A stretch of DNA of 5,122 bases from Nitrospirales bacterium (GTDB lineage Bacteria > Nitrospirota > Nitrospiria > Nitrospirales > UBA8639), in contig JAJDBO010000143.1 in NCBI GenBank assembly GCA_029261305.1, positions 1-5,122 of the forward strand. Reading direction: 5' to 3'. This document shows positions 1-5,122 of this stretch, piece after piece; within the stretch, counting starts at the first letter, position 1, and each line of letters opens with the position of its first letter. The notes under the pieces were generated by a model. The model was not told where the DNA came from and did no database searches. It was given only the letters and a program-made list of their open reading frames with translations. A program made the position numbers and the translations under genes.

Positions 1-903
1 CAACCTTGGCCGATGATACTCAATGCCATCTACTTGGCAATCAATTCGATTGGCGACTTCAAGGACCCCGGGGAGAGATTTTTCCGGTGACTCAACACGG
101 ATATCCAAGCCATTGTCAATTCTACGGATATCTCGAACGTAAGGAAGGGTTTTCACTCCCTCGCTGAGCTGGTCAAGTTTCTCAACCTGGCTTTCTTTGA
201 CGGTCAAGATCAGACGATCGCCACCTAACCCGGCTTTGAGTTCCTTGGGGGATCCAATGACTTTAATCTTTCCTCCATCAATGATGGCGAGCCGATCGCA
301 CAGTTGATCGGCTTCTTCCAAATAGTTGGTCGTCATGACGATGGTGATGCCTTGTTCCCTTAACTGGCGTATATAATCCCAGATCCGAAGACGGCTTTGG
401 ACATCAAGGCCAAGCGTGGGTTCATCGAGAAAGACGATTTTGGGATTGGGCAGCAAGCCGCAGGCAATATCTAATTTGCGCTTCATTCCGCCCGAATATG
501 TTTTGGCAGCTCGATCCGCTTGTTCTTCCAGATTGACGAGTTTGAGCAATTCCTTAATACGTTCCTTTGCGTGGGCCTTGGGTAAGTGATAGAGGTCACC
601 CAGGAGTTCAAGATGTTCACGGCCTGTGAGGAATCGATCGATTGCTCGTTCTTGGGGAACGTACCCAATGAGACTTCTGACGGTGTCCGCTTCTTCCACG
701 ACATCATGTCCGAGCACCGTGGCTGTTCCAGATGTTGGTTGAAGGACGGTGATGAGAATGCGAAGCGTCGTACTTTTCCCGGCCCCATTAGGACCGAGGA
801 GGCCAAAAATTTCTCCGGAGTGAATGGTTAAGGAAAGATCATCAATGGCCGTGACAGACCCATACGTCTTCCTTAAGCTTTTCGCTTCAATTGCAGGATT
901 CAT
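1..903 (-). CDS. ABC exporter ATP-binding subunit, DrrA family (C-terminus cut by window edge)
   Basis: This is the cytoplasmic ATPase subunit of an ABC-2 type exporter; ATP hydrolysis would drive a separate membrane permease that is not in the window. The 301 visible residues contain, in order, Walker A GPNGAGKST (37-45), the Q-loop glutamine (Q84), the signature SGGMKRK (137-143), Walker B IVFLDEP (156-162) and the D-loop GLD (165-167). The H-switch position reads TTNYLEEAD (191-199), with Asn193 where most ABC ATPases have His. An extra C-terminal domain follows from about residue 220 and ends in EYHRPRL, where DrrA-like proteins usually continue with a short LDDVF-type tail, so probably only 20-40 residues are missing. 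The ATG at 903 shares one base with the stop of the preceding gene (TAATG), which points to translational coupling; its own ribosome binding site is weak. The exported substrate cannot be read from the sequence; the drug-resistance name is only a family label. Confidence 0.93.
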   Translation of the reverse strand, partial: MNPAIEAKSLRKTYGSVTAIDDLSLTIHSGEIFGLLGPNGAGKSTTLRILITVLQPTSGTATVLGHDVVEEADTVRSLIGYVPQERAIDRFLTGREHLELLGDLYHLPKAHAKERIKELLKLVNLEEQADRAAKTYSGGMKRKLDIACGLLPNPKIVFLDEPTLGLDVQSRLRIWDYIRQLREQGITIVMTTNYLEEADQLCDRLAIIDGGKIKVIGSPKELKAGLGGDRLILTVKESQVEKLDQLSEGVKTLPYVRDIRRIDNGLDIRVESPEKSLPGVLEVANRIDCQVDGIEYHRPRL

Positions 904-1571
904 TATTCCAATTCTTGTGAATGTTGTTGTGCGTCAAGTTTAAATCGAAGCAAGTCGATTAGTCGGCGTGTTTGTTGGTGCAGGCTTTCAGATTCCAATA
1001 AAAACTGTTTTTCCAATGGGGTGAAATCCATGCAAGACGATAGGCTATTGATGAGCACCGAGTCTGAGATGGATTGGCCGGTGATCAATTTACACAGTTC
1101 TTGCGCTTTGCGGGCGCGTAAATATTGCAAGGCGAATTTAGTGAGGGTGAGTCGAATGCCTGGATCAATGGGGTCTCGGAAGGCCTCATCAGTCCTCAGG
1201 GAAATTTTTGCTCGTCGATAGCTAGTATCAAAAAATTCTTCTTCAATATCGTAGCGCGCCAACCCGTGTAAAATGACATTCGATCGTCCATCTGCGAGAG
1301 GCTGAACATTTTTGATCCTTCCCACGCATCCAAGCGAGAATACAGGGGGATTGCCATAGTAATCATTTTCCCATCCCTCTTTTAACAGCACCATGCCGAT
1401 GCACTTTTCTTCCTGGTCGGCGTCCATAATCATGTCGCGATAACGTGGCTCAAAAATATGGAGTGGGAGATAGGTATCAGGGAAAAACACCACATTTGGC
1501 AGTGGAAAGATAGGAATCACATCTGGAATCGGAAAGACTTCAGATGGTGTTCTTCGATCGAGTTCGGGCAT
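903..1571 (-). CDS. Stand-alone LON substrate-binding-domain protein (PF02190 type)
   Basis: This 222-residue protein matches the N-terminal substrate-recognition domain of Lon protease but lacks the AAA+ and protease domains. The family block IPIFPLPNVVFFPD...LPLHIFEPRYRDMI spans residues 19-48, followed by IGMVLLKEGW (58-67), GCVGRI (81-86) and DGRSNVILHGLARYDI (94-109). The remainder is helical, from about residue 137. No signal peptide is visible, so it is probably cytoplasmic; its role is unknown, and binding of peptides or unfolded protein is a family-based guess. The frame stays open upstream to 1733, but I chose the ATG at 1571. The family block begins soon after it, the length fits stand-alone members, and longer versions would run through the divergent promoter region. 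No Shine-Dalgarno sequence precedes 1571. It is the first gene of a unit with the ABC ATPase. Confidence 0.88.
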   Translation of the reverse strand: MPELDRRTPSEVFPIPDVIPIFPLPNVVFFPDTYLPLHIFEPRYRDMIMDADQEEKCIGMVLLKEGWENDYYGNPPVFSLGCVGRIKNVQPLADGRSNVILHGLARYDIEEEFFDTSYRRAKISLRTDEAFRDPIDPGIRLTLTKFALQYLRARKAQELCKLITGQSISDSVLINSLSSCMDFTPLEKQFLLESESLHQQTRRLIDLLRFKLDAQQHSQELE

Positions 1572-1576
1572 GAGGT

Positions 1577-1606
1577 ACGATAGCGAACGCCTTAAATGCT
1601 TGTCAA
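1577..1606 (-). promoter_or_regulatory. Candidate sigma-70 promoter for the LON-domain gene, possibly leaderless
   Basis: On the minus strand a consensus -35 TTGACA (1606-1601) is followed after 18 bases by TATCGT (1582-1577, four of six matches). Transcription would begin near 1570-1571, essentially at the chosen ATG, which would give a leaderless mRNA. This agrees with the missing ribosome binding site but rests on one weak -10 element. Confidence 0.35.
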
Positions 1607-1614
1607 CGTGACAA
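1600..1614. promoter_or_regulatory. Perfect palindrome TTGTCA-ACG-TGACAA, candidate operator
   Basis: A perfect inverted repeat with 6-base arms and a 3-base centre lies in the divergent intergenic region. It overlaps the consensus -35 of the minus-strand unit and sits about 55 bases upstream of the -35 of the plus-strand unit. A dimeric helix-turn-helix repressor bound here could block the LON/ABC promoter. The regulator is not identifiable from the window. Confidence 0.45.
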
Positions 1615-1667
1615 CACACGAGGCAACGTCCATGCAAAACCATGAATTCCCGCATGAGGAAAGGCGA

Positions 1668-1696
1668 TTGCGAGTTCAATGACTGCATGCTATAAG
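1668..1696 (+). promoter_or_regulatory. Sigma-70 promoter with extended -10 for the CrtC-like/lipoprotein operon
   Basis: TTGCGA (1668-1673), a 17-base spacer and TATAAG (1691-1696) form a good promoter. A TG at 1688-1689 adds the extended -10 motif (TGCTATAAG). The start point would fall near 1701-1704, just before a purine-rich GGATGAGAAGG. This makes the upstream ATG at 1679 unlikely as the start of the following gene. Confidence 0.55.
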
Positions 1697-1732
1697 CGGT
1701 ACCAGGATGAGAAGGCTCACGTTTTGCGTCCA

Positions 1733-2917
1733 ATGAAACGGTTCAATCGAGGGTTTCTCTGCATAGAAGGCATTGCTGTGTTTTTTGCAGGGGTGCTCTT
1801 CAGTTTTGTGATCGTTCCACAGTCTGTGGTGGCTGTAGAAGCGATTGACTCTTACGACTCATCTCTCGGAGGGGCGCAAGCTCGGCCAGGCTACGTCTAT
1901 TCGTTTCCACGTGACCACGGATCCCACAATCAATATGGACTGGAATGGTGGTATTTCACTGGGCATCTTGCCTCGGAAGCAGGTCGGGAGTTTGGATATG
2001 AGCTGACCTTTTTCCGCAAGGTCATAGATAACTCTCAAGTCCAGAACAGCGCGTCACGTTGGGCCATCAAGCATATATACTTTGCTCATTTCGCTTTGAC
2101 GGATGTCGAAAGCCAAACCTTTCGATTCGCGGAAAAACTTAGCCGGGCTGGACTCGGGAAAGCTGGTGCCCATGCTGAGCAAATGAGGGTGTGGATTGAT
2201 CGCTGGACCATTTCCCCGGTGCGTCCCGATCATCAAGTGCTAGAACTCCAAGCCTCTGACGGGGATATTGGTGTGGACCTTCGACTTGCCCTGGAAAAAC
2301 CACCAATTATTCATGGAGAAGAAGGCATTAGTCGTAAGGGTGTGGATGTGGGGCAGGCCTCACATTATTATTCTCTAACCCGATTGGGCACAAAAGGTCT
2401 GCTGAGTATTCAGGAAAAAACTATTGAGGTGGTCGGTCTCAGCTGGATGGATCATGAATTTGGTTCGGGAAAACTTGGCGATGATCAAGTTGGGTGGGAT
2501 TGGTTCAGCATTCAGTTTGGCTCAAACATGGAATTAATGGTGTATCTCCTGCGAAAGAAAGATGGGTCTATAGACAAAGTGTCGAGCGGGACTCTCATTT
2601 TCCCGGATGGCCGGTCTCGCCATTTACGATTGCAGGACATGAAGGTCGACACGCAGGATTTTTGGACGAGCACAAAAACCCAGACCAGGTATCCGGCCAA
2701 ATGGGTGCTTGAGGTGCCTTCGGTGCAACTTCGAGTGACGGTCCAGCCTGTATTGTCTGACCAGGAATTGCAAACATCTAGGAGTACGAACGTTGCTTAT
2801 TGGGAGGGGGCGGTGAACGTGAGTGGCCAGCATGGTGACATGCCAATCTTTGGACAGGGGTATGTGGAGCTTACTGGATATTCTCGACCACTGAAGATGA
2901 ATGGGGAAAACCCCTGA
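1733..2917 (+). CDS. Secreted CrtC/AttH-like lipocalin-fold protein (COG5621-type 'predicted secreted hydrolase')
   Basis: This 394-residue exported protein belongs to the family often labelled carotenoid 1,2-hydratase or predicted secreted hydrolase. Diagnostic blocks are EWWYFTGHL (71-79), SHYYSLTR (210-217), WMDHEFGS (238-245), GWDWFSIQF (254-262), YWEGAVNVSG (356-365) and GYVELTGYS (376-384), consistent with two lipocalin-like halves. Residues 1-37 form a signal peptide: basic MKRFNR, a hydrophobic stretch to about residue 35, and likely cleavage after AVEA. The substrate is unknown. No carotenoid genes are nearby, so I would not infer carotenoid hydration. The ATG at 1733 is used, but a TTG at 1724 has the better-placed ribosome binding site (GAGAAGG 1709-1715, 8-base gap) and would add three residues. 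An in-frame ATG at 1679 lies upstream of the predicted transcription start. The gene is probably co-transcribed with the lipoprotein gene that follows. Confidence 0.88.
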   Translation: MKRFNRGFLCIEGIAVFFAGVLFSFVIVPQSVVAVEAIDSYDSSLGGAQARPGYVYSFPRDHGSHNQYGLEWWYFTGHLASEAGREFGYELTFFRKVIDNSQVQNSASRWAIKHIYFAHFALTDVESQTFRFAEKLSRAGLGKAGAHAEQMRVWIDRWTISPVRPDHQVLELQASDGDIGVDLRLALEKPPIIHGEEGISRKGVDVGQASHYYSLTRLGTKGLLSIQEKTIEVVGLSWMDHEFGSGKLGDDQVGWDWFSIQFGSNMELMVYLLRKKDGSIDKVSSGTLIFPDGRSRHLRLQDMKVDTQDFWTSTKTQTRYPAKWVLEVPSVQLRVTVQPVLSDQELQTSRSTNVAYWEGAVNVSGQHGDMPIFGQGYVELTGYSRPLKMNGENP

Positions 2918-2924
2918 ACTGACT

Positions 2925-3953
2925 ATGAACGTTTTCTCCAAGATGGCTCTTTTTAGTCTTTTGCCCCTAATGCTGCTGATTGGGTGCAGCCAGCGCAGTG
3001 ATCGGGTAGCGGCGGTGGCGGTCCATCCGACCAAACCCAACATTATCTATGTGGCCACTGAAGAAGGTGTGTATAAAACCAGAGATGGAGGCTTTGGATG
3101 GGAGCGCCTTACTGAAGGGTTGAGTCGTATTCGAGTGATGAACCTGGCTATTGATCCTCTTCTCCCAGCCAATGTGTTCGCGGGAACACTTACAGATGGG
3201 GTGTATAAAAGTCCTGATGGTGGGCGACGGTGGTTGCCAAGGAATGCTGGCATTCAAAAAGGCACCATCTCCGCCAATGTGAATGAGCTGGTGTTTCACC
3301 CTATTGATTCTCAGACCATATACGCGGCAACGACAGTTGGGGTATTTCGTAGTACGGATGGGGGGCAGTCGTGGGTTGAACGCATGAATGGAATGAATGA
3401 AATTAATTTTATTGTGGCTTTGGCTGTTGATCCCCAACATCCCAATATTATTTACGCTGGGACCAGTGGTGGGGTGTATCGGAGTTTTAATGGAACGGAA
3501 AATTGGATAAAAATCAATGATGGCCTGGTCCCCGATGATGCCAAATTGGCCTCGATGGCATTGGGAGTCAATAAATTAGTGATTGACCCATCAAATACGA
3601 GCCTTGTTTATGCTGGAACCACCAAAGGATTGTTTAAAACATTGGATAAGGGAGTGTCCTGGACAAAGATCGACACAAGTTTGGGTGATCCCTACGTGAG
3701 TAGTTTGGTGATAAACCCCAAGAGTTCCTATCAATTATATATGGGAACGAGTGAAGGGGTATTTGAAAGTCAAGATTCCGGGGGTACCTGGGCTCCCAGG
3801 CAGGAGGGGCTTGAAAATCTAAATATTCGAATCCTTGTTATGGACCCCAAAAATCCTGAAATCATATATTGTGGCACCAATGGTGGCGGTTTCTATAAAA
3901 GCCATAATTCCGCAAAATCTTGGGACTCCATTCCTCTAACCCTCCATCCTTGA
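2925..3953 (+). CDS. Lipoprotein with seven Asp-box (BNR/sortilin/YCF48-like) repeats, probable beta-propeller
   Basis: This 342-residue protein has a lipoprotein signal peptide with lipobox LIGC (18-21), so Cys21 would be lipidated. Ser22 at +2 would favour the outer membrane by the E. coli rule. The rest is seven repeats of 43-52 residues, each with an IIYAGT-like strand, a GVYKS-like strand and an Asp-box ending in Trp at 59, 103, 150, 194, 246, 289 and 333. Seven units with no large extra domain suggest a closed seven-bladed propeller acting as an extracytoplasmic binding or assembly scaffold; no catalytic residues can be assigned. The ATG at 2925 is seven bases past the preceding stop and gives a compact signal peptide (MNVFSK then hydrophobic). 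An in-frame ATG at 2901 overlaps the upstream gene by 17 bases and would add eight residues including a Glu. Neither start has a strong ribosome binding site, so coupling to the upstream gene is likely. Confidence 0.88.
   Translation: MNVFSKMALFSLLPLMLLIGCSQRSDRVAAVAVHPTKPNIIYVATEEGVYKTRDGGFGWERLTEGLSRIRVMNLAIDPLLPANVFAGTLTDGVYKSPDGGRRWLPRNAGIQKGTISANVNELVFHPIDSQTIYAATTVGVFRSTDGGQSWVERMNGMNEINFIVALAVDPQHPNIIYAGTSGGVYRSFNGTENWIKINDGLVPDDAKLASMALGVNKLVIDPSNTSLVYAGTTKGLFKTLDKGVSWTKIDTSLGDPYVSSLVINPKSSYQLYMGTSEGVFESQDSGGTWAPRQEGLENLNIRILVMDPKNPEIIYCGTNGGGFYKSHNSAKSWDSIPLTLHP
3003..3941 (+). repeat. Seven tandem Asp-box propeller repeats within the lipoprotein gene
   Basis: The Asp-boxes in order are TRDGGFGW, SPDGGRRW, STDGGQSW, SFNGTENW, TLDKGVSW, SQDSGGTW and SHNSAKSW. 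The first three are canonical S/T-x-D-G-G-x-x-W, the fourth and seventh are degenerate (Asn for Asp), and the fifth and sixth are intermediate. The Trp-to-Trp spacings are 44, 47, 44, 52, 43 and 44 residues. Confidence 0.85.
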
Positions 3954-4182
3954 TTTTTTTGACTATTCAAATCAATTTCTCGAAGAAGATTTCGCAATTT
4001 TTTGACATTTCTGACTATTTGTTACGAAAAGGTAACTAGTTTATTTCAAGGCCTTCGTCTTAAAAAAAAATATAAATTTTTCAAGATTGGTCGGTCTTAC
4101 TATGGAGCTTTCAGTAAAATTCATAAAAGTACTCCAACTTTGCTGTAGGACAAAAATGTAAACAAAACAAATGCCTTAGTAT

Positions 4183-4209
4183 GTTACCAAAAATAAACAT
4201 CAATGAAAT
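4183..4209 (+). repeat. Imperfect direct repeat, copy 1 (candidate activator site)
   Basis: GTTACCAA, four variable bases, AAACAT and CAATGAAAT. Copy 2 lies 166 bases downstream. Within the copy GTT-N10-AAC forms a dyad, extended to ATGTT/AACAT at 4181-4200. If the -24/-12 promoter is real, this copy lies roughly 270-295 bases upstream of its start point. Confidence 0.5.
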
Positions 4210-4325
4210 TTTTGAAATAAACAAAAAATCCTATGGAGATAAATTGTAATTATTCAACATAAGCTATTGTTTATATTGTATTTAAACTAAATTTTGTGCC
4301 AATTATATTAATGATTTGTAATTTC

Positions 4326-4338
4326 AATCAATAAATTA
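4326..4338 (+). promoter_or_regulatory. IHF-consensus match
   Basis: AATCAA-TAAA-TTA matches the IHF consensus WATCAANNNNTTR exactly. It lies between the two direct repeats and about 140 bases upstream of the predicted -24/-12 start point. In DNA this A+T-rich a chance match is quite possible. Confidence 0.25.
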
Positions 4339-4348
4339 TTAAAAATAC

Positions 4349-4377
4349 GTTACCAATTAGAAACATGACAATGAAAT
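4349..4377 (+). repeat. Imperfect direct repeat, copy 2 (candidate activator site)
   Basis: GTTACCAA, TTAG, AAACAT, two extra bases (GA) and CAATGAAAT. It matches copy 1 at 24 of 27 aligned positions, with one two-base gap. It keeps the GTT-N10-AAC dyad at identical spacing. It lies about 100-130 bases upstream of the predicted -24/-12 start point, a typical enhancer distance. Confidence 0.5.
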
Positions 4378-4450
4378 ATAAATCCAGGAATAGTTTAATT
4401 TTAACCTTTTAAAACAAATAGTTATGGTTTGTTTTTGATGCTGAATCTAA

Positions 4451-4467
4451 TGGCTTAATAATTGCTT
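4451..4467 (+). promoter_or_regulatory. Sigma-54 (-24/-12) promoter candidate for nxrA
   Basis: TGGC (4451-4454), seven bases and TTGCT (4462-4466) match the sigma-54 consensus TGGCACGN4TTGCW except for the ACG. The GG and GC pairs are exactly ten bases apart. Transcription would start near 4477, giving a leader of about 170 nt before nxrA. The A+T-rich upstream DNA with paired dyad repeats fits activator-dependent initiation. Confidence 0.5.
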
Positions 4468-4499
4468 ATTAATTACTGTCATTATTTTAGGGAAACGAA

Positions 4500-4592
4500 A
4501 TGTATTTAAATTTAACCAACAAAAAGAATCAAAGGGAGGGAGGTGGCCCGGTTAGCTTGTCCCTTTTTGAAGGGGAAATTTTTAATGTTTAA
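4500..4592 (+). CDS. Possible 30-residue leader peptide upstream of nxrA
   Basis: A short ORF starts with ATG at 4500 and ends with TAA at 4590-4592. AGGG at 4489-4492 lies seven bases before the ATG, a reasonable ribosome binding site. The peptide begins MYLNLTNKKNQR, continues with EGGGPVSLSL and ends FEGEIFNV. It has no recognisable domain, signal peptide or run of a single amino acid like those in classical amino-acid attenuators. It would lie wholly within the leader made from the -24/-12 promoter. Its stop codon overlaps the first of two hairpins before nxrA. A 30-codon ORF can occur by chance, and if transcription instead starts near 4593 it would not be in the mRNA. I do not recognise it. 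Confidence 0.3.
   Translation: MYLNLTNKKNQREGGGPVSLSLFEGEIFNV
4531..4580 (+). promoter_or_regulatory. Alternative hairpins in the nxrA leader (attenuator-like)
   Basis: TCCCTTT at 4560-4566 can pair with AAAGGGA at 4531-4537 (seven bases). Alternatively, TCCCTT at 4560-4565 can pair with AAGGGG at 4570-4575 around a TTTG loop (five pairs plus a G-U). The second hairpin is followed by AAATTTTT, so it resembles a weak intrinsic terminator. The two pairings exclude each other. The stems are short and the T run starts three bases after the stem, so termination would be inefficient at best. Confidence 0.3.
4557..4586 (+). promoter_or_regulatory. Alternative sigma-70-like promoter close to nxrA
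   Basis: TTGTCC (4557-4562, four of six), an 18-base spacer and TTTAAT (4581-4586, five of six) could direct a start near 4593, about 50 bases before nxrA. It competes with the -24/-12 candidate; both could be used under different conditions. Confidence 0.3.
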
Positions 4593-4623
4593 CGTATTCC
4601 ACGTTAGGCTGTCTGGAACAGCC
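4590..4623 (+). promoter_or_regulatory. Two abutting perfect 6-5-6 inverted repeats before the nxrA ribosome binding site
   Basis: TAACGT-ATTCC-ACGTTA (4590-4606) is followed with no gap by GGCTGT-CTGGA-ACAGCC (4607-4623). Both have 6-base arms and 5-base loops. TTCCA at 4597-4601 is complementary to TGGAA at 4614-4618, so the loop regions could also interact. The second hairpin ends seven bases before GAGGAGGT. They may be mRNA-stabilising or regulatory stem-loops, or the first may be a DNA operator at a nearby transcription start. Confidence 0.5.
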
Positions 4624-4630
4624 GTTACAC

Positions 4631-4638
4631 GAGGAGGT
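4631..4638 (+). promoter_or_regulatory. Strong Shine-Dalgarno of nxrA
   Basis: GAGGAGGT with a seven-base gap to the ATG at 4646 is near-perfect complementarity to the 16S rRNA tail. It is far stronger than the ribosome binding sites of the other genes here, as expected for a very highly translated enzyme. Confidence 0.85.
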
Positions 4639-4645
4639 CTTTGCA

Positions 4646-5122
4646 ATGTTTCTTTCTAGAAGACAGTTTTTAAAAGTCACCACTGGTACCGTGGCGGCAG
4701 TGGCCTTGGCTGATAAAGCCTTGGCATTGACTGCGCTGCAGCCAGTCGTCGAAGTGGGGAATCCGCTCGGCGAGTATCCTGACCGCGCCTGGGAGCGTGT
4801 GTATCACGATCAGTACCGGTATGATTCATCCTTTACGTGGTGTTGTTCTCCGAACGATACCCACGCCTGTCGTATTCGGTCATTTGTCCGAAACGGTGTG
4901 GTGATGCGGGTCGAGCAAAACTACGATCATCAAACCTACGAAGATTTGTACGGCAATCGCGGCACCTTCGCGCACAATCCTCGGATGTGCTTGAAGGGGT
5001 ACACGATGCATCGTCGGGTGTACGGTCCGTATCGGCTCAAAGGCCCCTTGATGCGCCGTGGCTGGAAAGCGTGGATGGACGCTGGGAGCCCAGAGTTCAC
5101 TCCAGACGTCATGAGCAAATAC
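4646..5122 (+). CDS. nxrA: Nitrite oxidoreductase alpha subunit NxrA (N-terminal 159 residues; runs off the window)
   Basis: This is the catalytic molybdopterin subunit of nitrite oxidoreductase, which oxidises nitrite to nitrate and passes electrons through the Fe-S subunit NxrB; in Nitrospira the enzyme faces the periplasm. The visible part starts with a twin-arginine signal (SRRQFLK, 4-10), a hydrophobic stretch and a likely cleavage site after ALA (25-27). The N-terminal Fe-S site follows: Cys67, Asp71, Cys75 and Cys115, with an extra Cys66. Aligning C75-RIRSFVRNG with the NarG block C-SWKIYVKNG puts Asp71 where NarG has its first cluster cysteine and Cys67 where NarG has His. The stretch GPYRLKGPLMRRGW (127-140) is the conserved segment after the Fe-S loop in this type II DMSO-reductase branch. 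The molybdenum-site region and most of the protein (over 1,000 residues expected) lie beyond the edge. The assignment rests on recognising the Nitrospira sequence, not on a search. nxrB is expected downstream. Confidence 0.9.
   Translation, partial: MFLSRRQFLKVTTGTVAAVALADKALALTALQPVVEVGNPLGEYPDRAWERVYHDQYRYDSSFTWCCSPNDTHACRIRSFVRNGVVMRVEQNYDHQTYEDLYGNRGTFAHNPRMCLKGYTMHRRVYGPYRLKGPLMRRGWKAWMDAGSPEFTPDVMSKY

Follow-up and report, generated by a model that had tools for sequence, protein, structure and literature searches.

A conserved, probable sigma-54-type promoter with putative enhancer dyads and a leader with predicted hairpins upstream of nxrA in a Nitrospirales bacterium

The window analysed here is the whole stretch of DNA, 5122 nt, from a Nitrospirales bacterium. 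The first 159 codons of nxrA lie at its right end, preceded by a non-coding stretch at 3954-4645. The encoded NxrA fragment was 99% identical to that of L001 (a Nitrospirae MAG, isolate casp150-mb.14) and 97-99% identical to those of loci L002-L014. The genes in 1-3953 encode an ABC transporter ATPase, a Lon-type substrate-binding protein, a CrtC/lipocalin-like protein and a BNR/sortilin-type beta-propeller protein. Neither a plasmid match nor an Rfam family match was found for the window. The features of the nxrA region are listed below.

4021..4036, no strand assigned: candidate enhancer dyad 3, GTTACGAAAAGGTAAC, with 1 mismatch to GTTACC-N4-GGTAAC, 430 bp upstream of the -24 box.
4183..4198, no strand assigned: candidate enhancer dyad 2, GTTACCAAAAATAAAC, with a degenerate right half, 268 bp upstream of the -24 box, in an island of 0.90-0.94 identity.
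4260..4279, + strand: A+T island with ATTGTTTAT, a candidate bend site, 95% identical to L001 and located between dyads 1 and 2.
4326..4338, + strand: IHF consensus match AATCAATAAATTA, exact in the window, at -125 from the -24 box; consensus lost in L001.
4349..4364, no strand assigned: candidate enhancer dyad 1, GTTACCAATTAGAAAC, 102 bp upstream of the -24 box, 94% identical to L001.
4451..4466, + strand: -24/-12 element TGGCTTAATAATTGCT, an exact TGGC-N7-TTGCT, kept in relatives, 180 bp ahead of the nxrA ATG.
4477..4645, + strand: nxrA 5' leader, 169 nt long if transcription starts at about 4477, as predicted; 99% identical to L001 over 4500-4600.
4532..4547, + strand: Shine-Dalgarno-like element of the leader, AAGGGAGGGAGGTGGC, about 100 nt ahead of the real start, with a predicted 16S-tail duplex of -16.2 kcal/mol.
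4560..4576, + strand: terminator-like hairpin TCCCTTTTTGAAGGGGA followed by a T run, found in 12 of the 14 closest relatives against 0.88 expected.
4607..4623, + strand: hairpin GGCTGT-CTGGA-ACAGCC, directly preceding the ribosome-binding site of nxrA; its stem covaries in relatives.
4646..5122, + strand: nxrA, first 159 codons, with a Tat signal and a molybdopterin Fe4S4 domain; ATG at 4646.

Unless stated otherwise, locus counts refer to the best 80 of 277 nxrA relatives (L numbers), and all genome-level tests were run in the genomes of relatives (G numbers). Two loci, L007 and L027, come from MAGs that are labelled Nitrospinota and carry a Nitrospira-type nxrA with a like upstream anatomy, probably through mislabelling or mixed bins.

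The initial annotation had placed a sigma-54-type TGGC-N7-TTGCT with exact GG-N10-GC spacing at 4451-4466. It is present there, with a gap of 10 nt between GG (4452-3) and GC (4464-5). It was the sole match in the window on both strands, where 0.07 was expected (a match occurred in 13 of 200 shuffles). Scanning the window with the fuller consensus TGGCACG-N4-TTGCW at 3 mismatches was uninformative (11 matches vs 6.5 expected).

Conservation in relatives had been proposed as a check of this element. The equivalents of 4451-4466 in L001 and L007 were TGGCTTGATAATTGCT and TGGCTCGATATTTGCT, and the letters of TGGC and TTGCT did not differ among the three. The 420 nt preceding each nxrA were scanned with the pattern TGG[CTA]-N7-[TC]TGC[ATG]. 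The strict form was present in all 14 of the closest loci (L001-L014), starting at -190 to -232. Within -245..-110, a range chosen post hoc from the first scan of the relatives, the relaxed form was found in 39 of the 80 loci and the strict form in 20; the loci are kin to each other, so that these counts, like those of the dyads below, are of non-independent events. About one relaxed match was expected: the values for relaxed and strict forms were 0.82 and 0.21 in dinucleotide shuffles, and 1.07 and 0.15 in 12904 background tiles from the same loci.

Across 40 sites (the one of the window and those of the 39 loci), information content per position did not exceed 0.55 bits in the flanks or 0.85 in the spacer. 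In the low-GC group (L015-L023), AGG replaced TGG in 7 of 9 loci, at about the same distance. Neither an in-range -24/-12 element nor the TGGCA-N6-TTGYW variant was found in 30 of the 80 loci. L055, L059 and L063 have a common GGCACACGAATTGA upstream of nxrA, another possible -24-like element. From the position of the element in the window, transcription of nxrA would be expected to start at about 4477, some 12 nt beyond its GC.

Two dyad-containing direct repeats had also been described upstream. These proved to be real (4180-4200 and 4346-4366, 81% identical), with the core GTTACC-N4-(G)G(T/A)AAC, and to be part of a set of three. The additional member, dyad 3, is the most palindromic of the three, and lies beyond the region 4181..4477 to which the initial annotation had been confined. 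The consensus GTTACC-N4-GGTAAC had been set before counting, by visual comparison of the window with L001 and L007. Dyad 2 falls outside the definition (at most 2 mismatches) behind the dyad counts.

By this definition, 41 of the 80 loci had a dyad at -700..-230 (L074 with only 640 nt of upstream sequence), against 0.94 in shuffles and 9 of 1689 background tiles. When the -24/-12 element was taken in its [AT]GG form (48 loci), both element and dyad were present in 37 loci, the element only in 11, the dyad only in 4 and neither in 28 (Fisher p 1e-8, uncorrected for kinship). Two of the dyad-only loci had related sequences: L064 carried TGGCTCCGGTATTGCT at -117, apparently an element outside the range or spacing used, and in L078 an element with a shorter spacer was seen by eye.

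The dyads were also found at particular distances. The 37 loci contained 55 dyads, of which 17 were at -96..-103, 19 at -210..-228 and 19 at -237..-483 from the -24 box. In the comparison of the window with L001, the three dyads stood out as islands of 90-94% identity from a background of mostly 40-65% upstream of 4320.

In the L001 genome (3.1 Mb), a dyad with at most 1 mismatch occurred once, at nxrA, as the counterpart of dyad 3 of the window; a reversed control pattern occurred 18 times. Because the near-perfect dyad occurs only at nxrA in the genome of the nearest relative, the enhancer looks specific to nxr. The perfect dyad was found in 2 of 17 genomes, both times nowhere but at nxrA. 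A degenerate form, GYTACC-N4-GGTAWC, was searched for in 12 genomes; of its 13 sites, 7 precede nxrA and 6 are within open reading frames. In G012 and G017, the site within an open reading frame is at the 3' end of seemingly the same glycosyltransferase-like gene, ahead of a cluster ending in the type B activator described below. No -24/-12 match was found within 500 bp of these two sites, and they were left out of the evidence. We interpreted the conserved dyads as putative enhancer sites to which an activator would bind.

The DNA between the dyads is very A+T-rich, as had been claimed, with a GC content of 0.195 at 4201-4400. The IHF site claimed within it fared less evenly. The match is exact, and the consensus was enriched among relatives, occurring within 330 nt upstream in 13 of the 48 sigma-54-type loci vs 1.85 expected from base shuffles. 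In 9 of these 13 loci, however, the site lay close to -180 or -45 relative to the -24 box, unlike the -125 of the window, and the site of the window is weak because its consensus is lost in L001. Of the 14 loci L001-L014, 11 have ATTGTTTWW between -184 and -204 relative to the -24 box, corresponding to the A+T island at 4260-4279 of the window. Bending of the DNA upstream of nxrA is plausible.

A sigma-54 promoter would require RpoN and an enhancer-binding protein, and the initial annotation had suggested a search for both. In the genomes of relatives, rpoN (PF04552) was over the cut-off in 17 of 18; the exception was G004, the Nitrospinota-labelled MAG of L007, which gave a weak match only. 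High-scoring PF00158 activator genes were found in all 15 genomes searched. Only high scores were counted, because the family was also positive in all 14 control genomes.

Few true activators (E below 1e-60) were present in three small genomes whose nxrA is of the -24/-12 type, namely 2 in G005, 3 in G018 and 4 in G006. Two of these, types A and B, were shared by all three. Type A (for example L121 1048-2421, - strand) is NtrX-like and follows a kinase gene judged NtrY-like by eye. Type B is an AtoC/NtrC-like response regulator encoded behind a dCache-HAMP-PAS kinase. These assignments are by likeness, the NCBIfam scores of both types all being under the curated cut-offs. In 7 of 7 type B sequences, the linker between the AAA+ and HTH domains contained C-x4-C-x10/11-C-x2-C, and because of this conserved Cys-rich linker type B is possibly redox-sensing. 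The type B genes (L139 1075-2523 on the + strand, L135, L124 and orthologues) are near-universal and lie near secD-secF-like genes; metal sensing is another possible role of the linker.

Type B was present in 46 of 48 genomes and type A in 41 (E <= 1e-125), including genomes in which nxrA lacks the promoter. Phylogenetic profiling was rejected as an activator finder, because with both types near-universal it cannot firmly pick one of them; after rescoring it leaned weakly to type B (A, 9 genomes; B, 3). In six genomes whose nxrA has both the -24/-12 element and the dyad (G013, G025, G026, G030, G046 and G047), no orthologue of type A was found even with every candidate considered (best hits at most 51% identical), and type B was present in all six; gaps in the MAGs weaken this contrast. 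Type B was absent from the smallest such genome, G045. NtrYX systems elsewhere respond to redox and nitrogen oxides, and type A is, like type B, among the few activators of the three small genomes. These genomes may also be incomplete, in which case a third activator could be absent from them. We put the chance that the activator is type A, or yet another protein, at somewhat below even.

In a scan of the nxrA flanks for GAFTGA and Walker A motifs, activator-like genes were found at 13 of the 80 loci, none of them dyad-type. Many contigs end within 8 kb. The copies with an activator gene just upstream (such as L030 and L036-L040) have no dyad. The activator of nxrA is a prediction for this reason, that the scan found no activator gene in the flanks of dyad-type loci.

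A degenerate dyad was noticed over the start of the type B kinase gene in 3 of 7 regions, those of G006 and G001 (2 mismatches each) and G011 (3), at L168 10071-10086, L171 5297-5312 and in L173. None was found at the kinase start in G007, G012, G017 and G018. This may reflect autoregulation or chance, and is only a lead, because the right half is coding sequence.

The five nxrA copies of N. moscoviensis (L099, L104, L109, L110 and L111) provided a comparison within one organism. L110 (C1:247584) has TGGTTTGGTTATTGCG at -198 and a 2-mismatch dyad, GTTACTCTGCAGTAAC, at -422. In the other copies, no dyad with at most 2 mismatches was found, with L104 as a possible exception: its GTTCCCTTTGAGTAAC is doubtful, and this locus also carries TGGCAGTTCCTTTGCT at -143. 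By its position, L110 should be nxrA_1 (NITMOv2_0255). According to the available parts of Mundinger 2019 (PMC6606698), nxrAB_1 has no regulator gene nearby, which would be consistent with control in trans.

According to the same parts of that paper (PMC6606698), nxrA_5 is the most expressed copy, at 13,027 RPKM vs 486 for nxrA_1. It is likely to be L111, which is without the L110-type element and dyad. This is a point against a simple sigma-54 story. At -149, L111 carries TGGCACAGGGCTTGTA; this form, which recurs at L109 and L036, is perhaps a variant of the -12 sequence. L111, L109, L036 and L030 have (T/C)GGCAY-N5-TTGTA at -114..-178, possibly a variant sigma-54 element whose -12 part reads TTGT; some of the four are directly preceded by an activator gene.

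Ten loci (L043, L044, L046-L050, L052, L053 and L065) lacked the -24/-12 element and the dyad, and had no leader duplex of -15 kcal/mol. We take them to be probably comammox, judging by titles that include, for example, UW-LDO-01 and CMX. A second nxrA in the L046 genome, L103, carries both the -24/-12 element and the dyad.

The leader is conspicuous for its complementarity to the 16S tail, which in the window is provided by AAGGGAGGGAGGTGG, from -114. Pairing of -15 kcal/mol or stronger in -150..-45 was found in 50 of the 80 loci vs 6 of 340 other genes of the same loci, whose starts had been assigned by a simple criterion. Exact matches of at least 9 nt to the 16S tail were present in 24 of the 80 nxrA loci and in none of the 340 other genes; the longest was 12 nt (L029). 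Some loci that lack the -24/-12 element, among them L030 and L036, have this leader element as well. No open reading frame behind it was conserved across loci. A leader peptide was rejected, as the start codons after the element are not conserved.

The terminator-like hairpin was found in L001-L008 and L010-L013, with differing stem sequences, and sits between two Shine-Dalgarno-like sequences. Across the sample it occurred in 15 of the 80 loci vs 4.4 expected, largely in the clade of the window, and its stem has only 3-4 G-C pairs. It is a possible attenuator. By eye only, AAAGGGA (4531-4537) could pair with TCCCTTT (4560-4566) in an antiterminator-like manner.

The hairpin just upstream of the ribosome-binding site was followed in alignment A1, which comprises the window plus 29 of the 80 loci; these were picked once the folds of all 80 had been viewed, so that A1 is biased towards loci in which the hairpin can be seen. 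Pairs formed in 81% of the cells, and covariation was 0.367 vs 0.183 in shuffles, none of the 500 shuffles reaching the observed value, for a structure named by the author and with a misaligned low-GC group counted unchanged. Pairs changed on both sides numbered 3 vs 3.1 in shuffles, that is, not above them. The single-sequence z-scores were modest (-1.9 for the window), and RNAalifold predicted no pairs on A1.

Taken together, we interpreted 4021-4466 as an nxrA promoter that depends on sigma-54 (RpoN) and has enhancers of its own, with an activator encoded elsewhere, and we assign this reading a probability of about 0.88. The arrangement suggests that nxrA is switched on by a dedicated activator protein. 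RNA polymerase with sigma-54 would bind the -24/-12 element and wait as a closed complex, as is established for the class. An activator of the NtrC/NifA type, encoded elsewhere in the genome, would bind the dyads 102, 268 and 430 bp upstream. A DNA loop, perhaps aided by the A+T-rich bend, would bring it to the polymerase, and ATP hydrolysis would open the promoter. The transcript would carry the long conserved leader with its ribosome-docking-like element and hairpins, probably a second control, acting on translation, stability or read-through. The activator-dependent control postulated by the initial annotation is supported in this way by the conserved element, the dyads at set distances, and the rpoN and activator genes of relatives. 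Its further remark, that nxrA is not simply constitutive, would follow from the biochemistry of sigma-54.

The fit is not complete, in that 11 of the 48 sigma-54-type loci have no dyad with at most 2 mismatches. The dyads might bind a regulator of another kind (a housekeeping-type activator, for example, or a repressor), with the -24/-12 element as a by-product of a conserved A+T-rich region containing a sigma-70 promoter. Dyads at about -100 would suit ordinary regulators too, and sigma-70-like matches are found nearby, 8 in 3900-4700 vs 3.5 expected, for example TTGATG-16-AATAAT at 4435-4462. The -35-like TTGATG of that example, however, is lost in L001 and L007, whereas the -24/-12 letters recur in the 39 loci although the spacer varies. 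The dyads moreover keep two distances in upstream DNA that blastn could not align to the window except in L001 and, partly, L007. We consider this explanation very improbable.

Control mainly in the leader deserves somewhat more weight, while still being unlikely. Transcription would then be near-constant, and attenuation, ribosome docking or mRNA protection would set the output. The frequency of the 16S-tail complement before nxrA relative to other genes, its persistence at L030 and L036, the terminator-like hairpin of the close relatives and the covariation of the second hairpin all favour it. On the other hand, the terminator-like hairpin is G-C-poor and largely limited to one clade, and control in the leader leaves both the dyads and the -24/-12 element unexplained.

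The nxrA region resembles sigma-54 promoters with upstream activator sequences (the NtrC, NifA and PspF class) in its GG-N10-GC spacing and in dyads 100-430 bp upstream, as well as in the rpoN and activator genes of relatives' genomes. It differs in its target, the key catabolic enzyme of nitrite oxidation. The NtrC site is TGCACC-N5-GGTGCA, and the NifA site is TGT-N10-ACA. The dyad GTTACC-N4-GGTAAC, compared with these consensus sequences as generally known, is unlike either.

Ribosome standby sites and transcription attenuators are leaders in which sequences complementary to the ribosome and hairpins precede the start. The nxrA leader, as read from its sequence, is like them in parts, and its Shine-Dalgarno-like element perhaps works as a standby or protective site. 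It also shares with STAB-SD of Bacillus thuringiensis cry3A, as described in the accessible portion of PMC4113751, a Shine-Dalgarno-like sequence that is far from the start codon and starts no open reading frame. STAB-SD acts by blocking RNase J (same portion of PMC4113751). This mode was rejected for nxrA, and the leader was filed as not STAB-SD, because RNase J (TIGR00649) was over the cut-off in 0 of 7 genomes; a match to the 16S tail of up to 12 nt is a further difference.

Some Nitrospira nxr copies are flanked by genes for sigma-54-dependent regulators, according to the available parts of Mundinger 2019 (PMC6606698) and of PMC7522533, which cite Lucker 2010 and Koch 2015 for these genes. 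The word 'promoter' has 0 occurrences in PMC6606698 and PMC7522533. For those copies the same sigma-54-type control was proposed from neighbouring genes, as far as the available parts go; the nxrA type of the window has a conserved enhancer in place of a neighbouring activator gene, none having been found in the available flanks. No published description of this promoter, dyad or leader was found among titles and the beginnings of abstracts, although part of it may be contained in Lucker 2010 and Koch 2015. Neighbouring regulator genes had thus already led to the suspicion that nxr is under sigma-54 control; the layout of the promoter, the motif of its enhancers and the leader are added here.

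Nitrospira carries out much of the Earth's nitrite oxidation. As a speculation that we hold to be doubtful as a whole, canonical Nitrospira may have a private sigma-54 switch for its key energy enzyme, with one enhancer essentially exclusive to nxr and read by an unlinked response regulator. The best candidate would be the AtoC/NtrC-like protein coupled to a dCache/PAS kinase, with its conserved Cys-rich linker, possibly redox-sensing. The leader would dock the 30S subunit through its complement to the 16S tail and, in the clade of the window, could end transcription early, and the probably comammox set of nxrA genes would have lost both layers.

Regulation of nxr had been inferred only from nearby regulator genes, in the available parts of PMC6606698 and PMC7522533, and the conserved promoter, enhancer and leader would turn it into a testable regulon. 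The dyad motif could be used as bait for the activator, and would explain the control of nxr copies that lack a neighbouring regulator. The leader element, rare before other genes of the same loci, points to a second layer of control at the mRNA.
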